Shown here in pieces: positions 32,568 to 33,033 of a stretch of DNA of 64,000 nucleotides. The notes beneath the pieces are model-generated. The model was not told the DNA's origin and searched no databases. It worked only from the letters and a program-made list of their open reading frames with translations. The DNA is taken from positions 496,001 to 560,000 of the forward strand of contig NZ_FZPD01000003.1 of NCBI RefSeq assembly GCF_900188325.1, given 5' to 3'. The stretch's first letter is position 1. The number at the start of each line of letters is the position of its first letter. The position numbers and the translations under genes are program-made. This DNA is from Ekhidna lutea. Its GTDB lineage: Bacteria; Bacteroidota; Bacteroidia; Cytophagales; Cyclobacteriaceae.

Positions 32568-32640
32568 GCGGGTGTAGCTCAGTTGGTAGAGCGACAGCCT
32601 TCCAAGCTGTAGGTCGCGGGTTCGAGCCTCGTCACCCGCT
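32568..32640 (+). tRNA. trnG: tRNA-Gly (TCC)
   Basis: GCGGGTG pairs with CACCCGC; the anticodon TCC is at 32601-32603 in loop CTTCCAA, with stem ACAGC/GCTGT. The D arm is complete and the T loop is TTCGAGC. CCA is not encoded. Confidence 0.95.
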
Positions 32641-32642
32641 CA

Positions 32643-32664
32643 AATGTCGAAAAAGTTCGACATT
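32643..32664 (+). repeat. Perfect 9-base hairpin after trnG
   Basis: AATGTCGAA, loop AAAG, TTCGACATT. No T tract follows. It may guide processing of the tRNA precursor or be part of the inserted sequence that carries the tRNA-like copy. Confidence 0.6.
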
Positions 32665-32718
32665 GAGCAATCAGATGAGATCATTAGATTTCATTTGAAC
32701 GTTATTGTAAAATTGAAA

Positions 32719-32820
32719 GTGGGTGTAGCTCAATTAGTAGACATACAGTTCGTTCCATTACGGCTTCCAAGCTGTAGGTCGCGGCGGTTCGTCGCTACGA
32801 TTCGAGCCTCGTCACCCGCT
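32719..32820 (+). pseudogene. Interrupted tRNA-Gly(TCC)-like sequence
   Basis: This 102-base copy of trnG keeps the acceptor stem (GTGGGTG/CACCCGC, one G-T pair), CTTCCAAGCTGTAGGTCGCGG and TTCGAGCCTCGT. It has two insertions of about 15 bases: one in the 5' anticodon stem (about 32747-32761) and one in the T stem (about 32785-32799). Both inserts share GTTCGT...C...TACG and sit just before a loop TTC. The D stem is also broken (GCTC against GACA). It is probably non-functional as a glycine tRNA, though a folded RNA is possible. The flank CGCTCAAAT is the same as after the intact gene. Confidence 0.75.
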
Positions 32821-32893: not shown

Positions 32894-32965
32894 GCCGATG
32901 TAGCTCAGGGGTAGAGCGTTTCCTTGGTAAGGAAGAGGTCAGGGGTTCAAATCCCCTCATTGGCT
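32894..32965 (+). tRNA. trnT: tRNA-Thr (GGT)
   Basis: GCCGATG pairs with CATTGGC (two wobble or weak pairs); the anticodon GGT is at 32926-32928 in loop TTGGTAA, and the T arm is AGGGGTTCAAATCCCCT. tuf follows 68 bases later with no new promoter visible. Confidence 0.94.
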
Positions 32966-33033
32966 CTTATTCAAGGATTAGAATTAGAAAATAGAGTAAT
33001 AACAATAAATTAAACAAACGAGGATTATCAAGC

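Follow-up and report, generated by a model that had tools for sequence, protein, structure and literature searches.

The window, a stretch of 64,000 nt from Ekhidna lutea (contig NZ_FZPD01000003.1, positions 496,001 to 560,000), carries a cluster in the order trnY - trnG(TCC) - degenerate trnG copy - trnT - tuf - trnW - nusG - ribosomal protein genes, in which the genes other than those for tRNAs were named by reading the ORFs. The intact tRNA-Gly(TCC) gene, the parent of the copy, lies at 32568..32641 of the forward strand and is called by both ARAGORN and Rfam at the gathering threshold (as 32568-32640/1). The second copy, at 32719..32820 of the same strand, receives no call from either program (Rfam again at the gathering threshold), and its downstream neighbour is a called tRNA-Thr(GGT) gene (32894..32966, forward strand). 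Alignment of the copy to the intact gene, together with these calls, confirmed the original prediction of an interrupted glycine-tRNA-like sequence beside trnG. At its two inserts the copy has gained a net 14 and 15 nt over the intact gene, and 8 of the aligned bases are substituted. Its acceptor ends, its anticodon loop CTTCCAA and its T loop TTCGAGC are retained, as had been claimed, and the D-stem pairing, as read from the alignment, is gone.

Two inserts are present, as predicted, but only one of them is 15 bases long. With the placement chosen, in which each block substitutes for one host base, the anticodon-arm insert TTCGTTCCATTACGG (32749..32763, forward strand), delimited by the alignment and by comparison with genome G005, has 15 nt, and the T-arm insert CGGTTCGTCGCTACGA (32785..32800, forward strand), a member of a family of 16-nt elements, has 16 nt. 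The latter consists of the foot CGGT, the stem TCGT/ACGA and the loop CGCT. The fold initially proposed for it, GCGG-TTCG-TCGC, makes use of letters of the host tRNA, and covariation in the family instead backs TCGT-CGCT-ACGA, which lies inside the insert. The pattern thought to be shared by both inserts, GTTCGTNNCN{0,2}TACG, does match at two places in the window, namely the two inserts, where 0.02 matches would be expected, but it is not a genome-wide repeat, since the genome contains 3 matches against 9 for the reversed control. The copy folds with z = -2.84 in a folding test, from which two G005 stretches were left out because they begin some 16 nt into their copies. It is probably a pseudogene carrying the insertions. 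An assembly error is very unlikely because the congener G005 (CP030886.1, MAG Cytophagaceae bacterium ECT2AJA-110-C), a one-contig genome, has both inserts at the same locus.

Among nine congeners searched, an inserted tRNA-Gly copy was found only in G005. It is absent from the 7 other congeners read, of which G004 is readable only to a contig end within trnT, and G001 (73% complete) gave no match. The genome of G005 encodes two tandem copies 188 bp apart, upstream of the intact tRNA-Gly gene, each with three inserts, namely CGGTTCGACGATTCGA in the D loop, CTCGTTCCACTACGG in the anticodon arm and CGGTTCGTCGTTACGA in the T arm, the last with one change in the first copy. Inspection of the E. 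lutea copy by eye, as well as the matches of the congener search, revealed a downstream flank similar to the one that follows the single tRNA-Gly gene in G004 and G006. This likeness fits a tandem duplication with decay of the downstream gene, and the copy thus appears to occupy the old gene position. The shared inserts of E. lutea and the second G005 copy differ in 3/31 letters, against differences at four-fold sites of 40% in tuf, 26% in nusG and 25% in rplK; no good alignment of the spacers of the two genomes was obtained. The neutral chance of so few differences is 0.0002 to 0.03 at 40% to 25% divergence, although for a tiny sample, so constraint or later exchange is possible. The gradual, unrelated decay that would have spoken against the original prediction was not seen in the relatives.

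Structure and distribution of the hairpin family

The element has the plan of an unpaired foot CGGT followed by a hairpin YCGx-CGNN-x'CGR, about 16 nt in all, with a 4-bp stem and a CGNN tetraloop. In the notation CGGT-y-CG-x-CG-nn-x'-CG-r, the positions x and x' were left unconstrained in every search pattern that covered both. They form 13 Watson-Crick pairs and one G-U pair in 14 hand-picked rows, and Watson-Crick pairs in 81 of 85 distinct instances, where the reversed pattern gives 1. The largest set, drawn from the DNA retrieved, probably contains some chance matches; of its 188 distinct instances, 173 have a Watson-Crick pair at x and x', comprising 58/60 in tRNA contexts and 115/128 elsewhere. 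All four combinations occur; among the 172 instances kept after removal of 9 loci taken as chance and of all unpaired instances, CG is found 128 times, AT 24, GC 16 and TA 4. Many of the instances counted are related by descent, through arrays and sister species, and are not independent. Different pairs are also found within one tRNA copy, A-T in the D loop and T-A in the T arm in G005, and G-C and C-G, each complementary, in G091. This covariation indicates that the hairpin itself is conserved, which would be expected if something recognises a hairpin.

The anticodon-arm insert can pair as TCGT-TCCATT-ACGG. Its examples, from E. lutea, G005 and one doubtful tRNA-Met case in G610, follow a plan with a six-base loop, TCGT-TCCAYT-ACGG, suggesting that it is probably a larger-loop relative of the 16-nt element. 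Relatives with a C-G outer stem pair (CGGTCCG...CGG) are situated near a standard copy at loci L137, L149 and L151, and head-to-tail doublets of the 16-mer are present at L188, L271 and L274.

BLAST with the G005 copy matched 8 of 390 genomes of the family. The T-arm insert is carried by five of them, E. lutea, G005, G059 and G130 (both in tRNA-Asp) and G089 (in tRNA-Gly(CCC)), and the other three matched by tRNA sequence alone. In G059, six near-identical tRNA-Asp units of 125 bp with the insert stand in tandem. The counts that follow in this paragraph come from pattern searches in which the reversed pattern served as the control. One-mismatch patterns found 12 places in 9/390 genomes of the order against 0 controls and 45 places in 18/375 genomes of the family against 1; these patterns contained TTCGA, which biases them to T loops. 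Patterns without TTCGA found 69 places in 22 of 25 genomes picked for matches, against 1 control, and 130 places in 194 unselected genomes of the order, against 6 controls, G516 alone accounting for 70 of these places against 1; the unselected prevalence in the order is 17/194 genomes for this pattern. A further pattern search gave 43 places against 2 controls. In the E. lutea genome there are the window copy, one at C9:267447 and four more, three of them in C- and G-rich palindromic-looking repeats and the fourth in a 5'-half tRNA-Thr copy, within its D loop.

Outside the order, 5/127 genomes matched, with x-x' being Watson-Crick in 1 case, G-T in 2 and unpaired in 2, and these matches look like chance. 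The anticodon-arm pattern had no matches in viral contigs, and the single viral match to the T-arm pattern, in which x and x' are unpaired, was likewise taken as chance. A covariance model of the T-arm insert found only the E. lutea genome among 395 genomes of the phylum (1/395); the rows showed 17 scored candidates per genome, and this search was treated as uninformative, with patterns used instead.

Hosts and insertion junctions

The insertion point matches a tRNA gene in 60/188 instances, 45 in the T arm and 15 in the D arm, with 18 anticodon labels assigned by best match. Most of the matches to TTCGA-containing patterns read as whole tRNA copies or parts of them, usually next to an intact tRNA. 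The 3' tRNA halves with a T-arm insert tend to be located downstream of it, often together with the terminator-like hairpin of the tRNA, and the 5' halves with a D-loop insert tend to be located upstream. The loci contain 42 distinct degenerate tRNA copies, 23 with the element and 19 without it by a strict pattern, proportions that give no rate because the loci were mostly fetched for the element; several of the 19 have a variant or reversed element, and some are cut by the locus ends. It is probable that spare tRNA copies are hosts since they are expendable. In the tRNA-His copies of one genus the element is reversed in the T arm, on the 3' side of the T loop (L246, L257 and L278; G552, G046 and G545). 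The possibility that the copies represent integrase att sites was rejected, since in the loci read their distance from the intact tRNA ranges from tens to hundreds of bases, and tRNA sequence flanks the insert on either side.

Hairpin-marked tRNA remnants form tandem arrays, with 2 to 7 units counted, beside intact tRNAs at L057 (G059), L095 (G016), L163/L165 (G046 and G545) and G552:C1:3625991-3626311. The number of units varies between species, and one array, of tRNA-Thr, is found in three congeneric species, G046, G545 and G552. A 5'-half tRNA-Thr(TGT) copy with a D-loop insert lies just upstream of the intact tRNA-Thr gene in E. lutea (L264:584, C11:361683), and a similar copy is found in the congener G007 (L254).

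The remaining 128/188 instances have no tRNA gene match at the insertion point, although a few are tRNA-like by eye; examples without tRNA likeness include L048, L071, L074, L085 and L089. Of about two dozen copies read in G516, most are, by eye, in A+T-rich DNA without tRNAs, and several of the matches in this genome (L173, L186-L202) lie in repeats such as ATATTGG|TAGCAAAT and TTCCAGA|TTCCAGA. The genes that host the element encode two Y1 (IS200-like) transposases, two reverse transcriptases and one IS4/5-type transposase. The reverse transcriptase at L138 has a group II maturase domain and is frame-shifted, and the one at L143 has a net gain of 15 nt. In the two Y1 genes, which belong to different genera, are open before and after the insert, and encode proteins about half identical by eye, the element occupies the same codon, which suggests two independent entries at one site. 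A search of 6 genomes for an empty copy of the interrupted IS4/5 gene found none, but only two places in G440, both filled. The idea that hairpin loops are targeted in general is unsupported outside tRNAs, since 94 non-tRNA sites were no more hairpin-prone than nearby controls (Wilcoxon p = 0.11).

Empty sites were sought by joining the flanks without the insert, and 82/130 instances were matched by the script rule, some of them being poor alignments or still element-bearing. The filled/empty pairs relied on are therefore restricted to the tRNA pairs, the two Y1 genes, one reverse transcriptase gene (fill L111/L143), L148, L169/L204 and the G516 repeats. Filled sites are longer than empty ones by 15 or 16 nt. 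Among the tRNA pairs, an empty GG|TTCGA has as its filled form G[element]TTCGA (net 15) or GA[element]TTCGA (net 16). Other tRNAs have GGG[element]TCGA where the empty site is GGT|TCGA, and in the G516 repeats ATATTGG|TAG corresponds to ATATTGA[element]TAG or ATATTGG[element]TAG. The junction on the right does not vary, and the left base is often changed or lost. No target duplication is visible in the filled/empty pairs, some of which are poorly aligned. The base at -1 is a purine in 155/172 kept instances and the base at +1 is T in 126/172, the latter being partly forced by the search patterns; in 20 genomes, +1 is T at 166 places and another base at 43. One genome per species was used, and movement is therefore deduced from different loci and species.

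Possible mode of spread and relation to known elements

The T-arm insert is probably a copy of a very small, non-autonomous, REP-like mobile hairpin of Cytophagales. The family, its covariation, the filled and empty sites and the copy numbers were observed directly, and they agree best with the tiny mobile palindrome with target preference suggested in the original prediction, as the hairpin, with a covarying stem, recurs across several families of the order, not only in tRNA copies but also in genes and other places. Such an element would enter DNA mostly between a purine and T, adding 15 or 16 nt net, leaving no visible target duplication and often changing or removing the left base. Spare tRNA copies produced by tandem duplication would accommodate it, at the G|T of their T and D loops, and a sole tRNA gene would not. 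By analogy with IS200/IS605 and REP enzymes, a trans-acting enzyme may recognise the hairpin in single-stranded DNA and join it to a new site. The foot-plus-hairpin layout, the covariation and the missing target duplication fit a trans-mobilised element, although copying into a nick might also account for the variation at the left junction.

Duplicated insertion during slippage, which had also been considered, cannot explain the same sequence in unrelated hosts. Spread by recombination, in which one ancestral T-arm insertion was carried around by short-tract gene conversion and tandem duplication and not by transposition, would draw on the GGTTCGA common to T loops of different tRNAs, and both the near-identical tandem units of G059 (6 units of 125 bp) and the tRNA-Thr array common to G046, G545 and G552 are consistent with it. 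However, it is unlikely in view of the 128/188 instances without a tRNA gene match and the 70 pattern matches in G516; moreover, insertions occur in D loops and not just in T loops, the tRNA-His copies carry the element reversed, and stem bases vary between copies yet remain paired.

The inserted tRNA-like sequence might alternatively be a functional RNA, for example a decoy or regulator, in which selection on the RNA keeps the hairpins. This reading, the tRNA-derived RNA with a new role of the original prediction, would be in keeping with the low divergence of the inserts (3/31 letters, against 25-40% at four-fold sites; chance 0.0002 to 0.03), the persistence of the tRNA-Thr array in three species and the position of the copy inside the tRNA-tuf cluster. 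Many copies, however, are tRNA halves only, the E. lutea copy is without D-stem pairing, and the same hairpin occurs in unrelated DNA; together with the 7 other congeners read that are without the copy (G004 to the contig end only) and the lack of a match in the 73% complete G001, this makes such a role quite improbable. Archaeal tRNA introns occur at non-canonical positions, in arms resembling those hit here. The D, anticodon and T arm positions of the inserts recall these introns, but the idea that the inserts are tiny introns spliced from tRNA and mRNA is scarcely credible, as the tRNA copies read as hosts are for the most part spare, incomplete or decayed, usually with an intact gene next to them, and several of the gene hosts are frame-shifted mobile-element genes.

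Returning to the probable mobile hairpin, its closest counterparts are REPs, REPINs and the small repeats of Nostoc. Among the REPs, the GTAG class has a stem of 5-13 bp and the CGTC class a stem of 8-9 bp, with 20-40 nt in all, according to PMC3733652. The sources on these elements (PMC3733652, PMC6006769, PMC3116915) link REPs and REPINs to RAYT (TnpA_REP) enzymes, place GTAG REPs next to a RAYT gene, report REP insertions inside tnpA_REP genes in a subclass abundant in Bacteroidetes and Cyanobacteria, and regard single REPs as defunct. Compared with REPs as these sources portray them, the element similarly has a hairpin whose 5' foot is a conserved tetranucleotide left unpaired, occurs in dispersed copies and has no transposase of its own, and it also lies inside transposase genes, here the two Y1 genes. 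In contrast to the REPs of those accounts, its foot is CGGT (168) or CGGG (4) in the 172 kept instances and not GTAG or CGTC, the search patterns having allowed these two feet only; its stem has 4 bp and its length is 16 nt; and it occurs as single units with filled and empty sites, many of them in tRNA arms. Y1_Tnp genes are present in 10/10 genomes tried, but unlike the GTAG REPs described beside RAYT genes, the element was not found within about 1.5 kb of them at any of the 30 loci fetched among 41 matches listed in 10 genomes, and the two Y1 genes that hold it inside are additional to these. As in IS200/IS605-type (HUH) insertion, no target-site duplication is seen in the filled/empty pairs, some poorly aligned; unlike in clean HUH insertion, the left junction varies.

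Rickettsia palindromic elements and yeast mitochondrial GC clusters are palindromic selfish DNAs that enter genes, including RNA genes. Both are longer than the element. In 2008, Elhai et al. reportedly found very small mobile repeated elements (SDRs) in Nostoc, some of 20 nt, dispersed and inserted in other repeats and in RNA genes. They differ in belonging to another phylum, the element here having 16 nt and residing in tRNA arms. The Rickettsia elements are also mentioned in the REP literature (PMC3733652). Six 14- and 16-mers of the element had no occurrence in the literature text searched.

The best reading is that the element is a REP-like miniature of unusual size and target, and its standing as a separate class hinges on the enzyme. 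There is a somewhat less than even chance that it represents a previously undescribed class of mobile DNA at the lower end of the size range. It would then be one 16-nt hairpin and not a REP doublet, moved by a putative enzyme, with a standing preference for tRNA arms, and it would have left tRNA remnants marked by the hairpin, in arrays, in Cytophagales. Mobility of a lone 16-nt hairpin, if real, would lower the size of the smallest mobile DNA unit known to us and contradict the view of single REPs as dead remnants. The copies in tRNA remnants provide naturally occurring filled/empty pairs that can reveal target choice and junction chemistry. A comparison of genomes with 70 copies and with none may lead to the enzyme, and G516 is the best organism for finding it.

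Other small hairpins adjoin the 16-mer at several places. The mini-hairpin GCGCGAAGCGC is directly next to it at L243 and L266 (G162) and may represent another family of small elements. At L104, L124, L130, L148 and L242 the 16-mer is directly followed by a hairpin of the type TACTTTTTT...AAAAAAGTA, which may be a separate repeat in those genomes.
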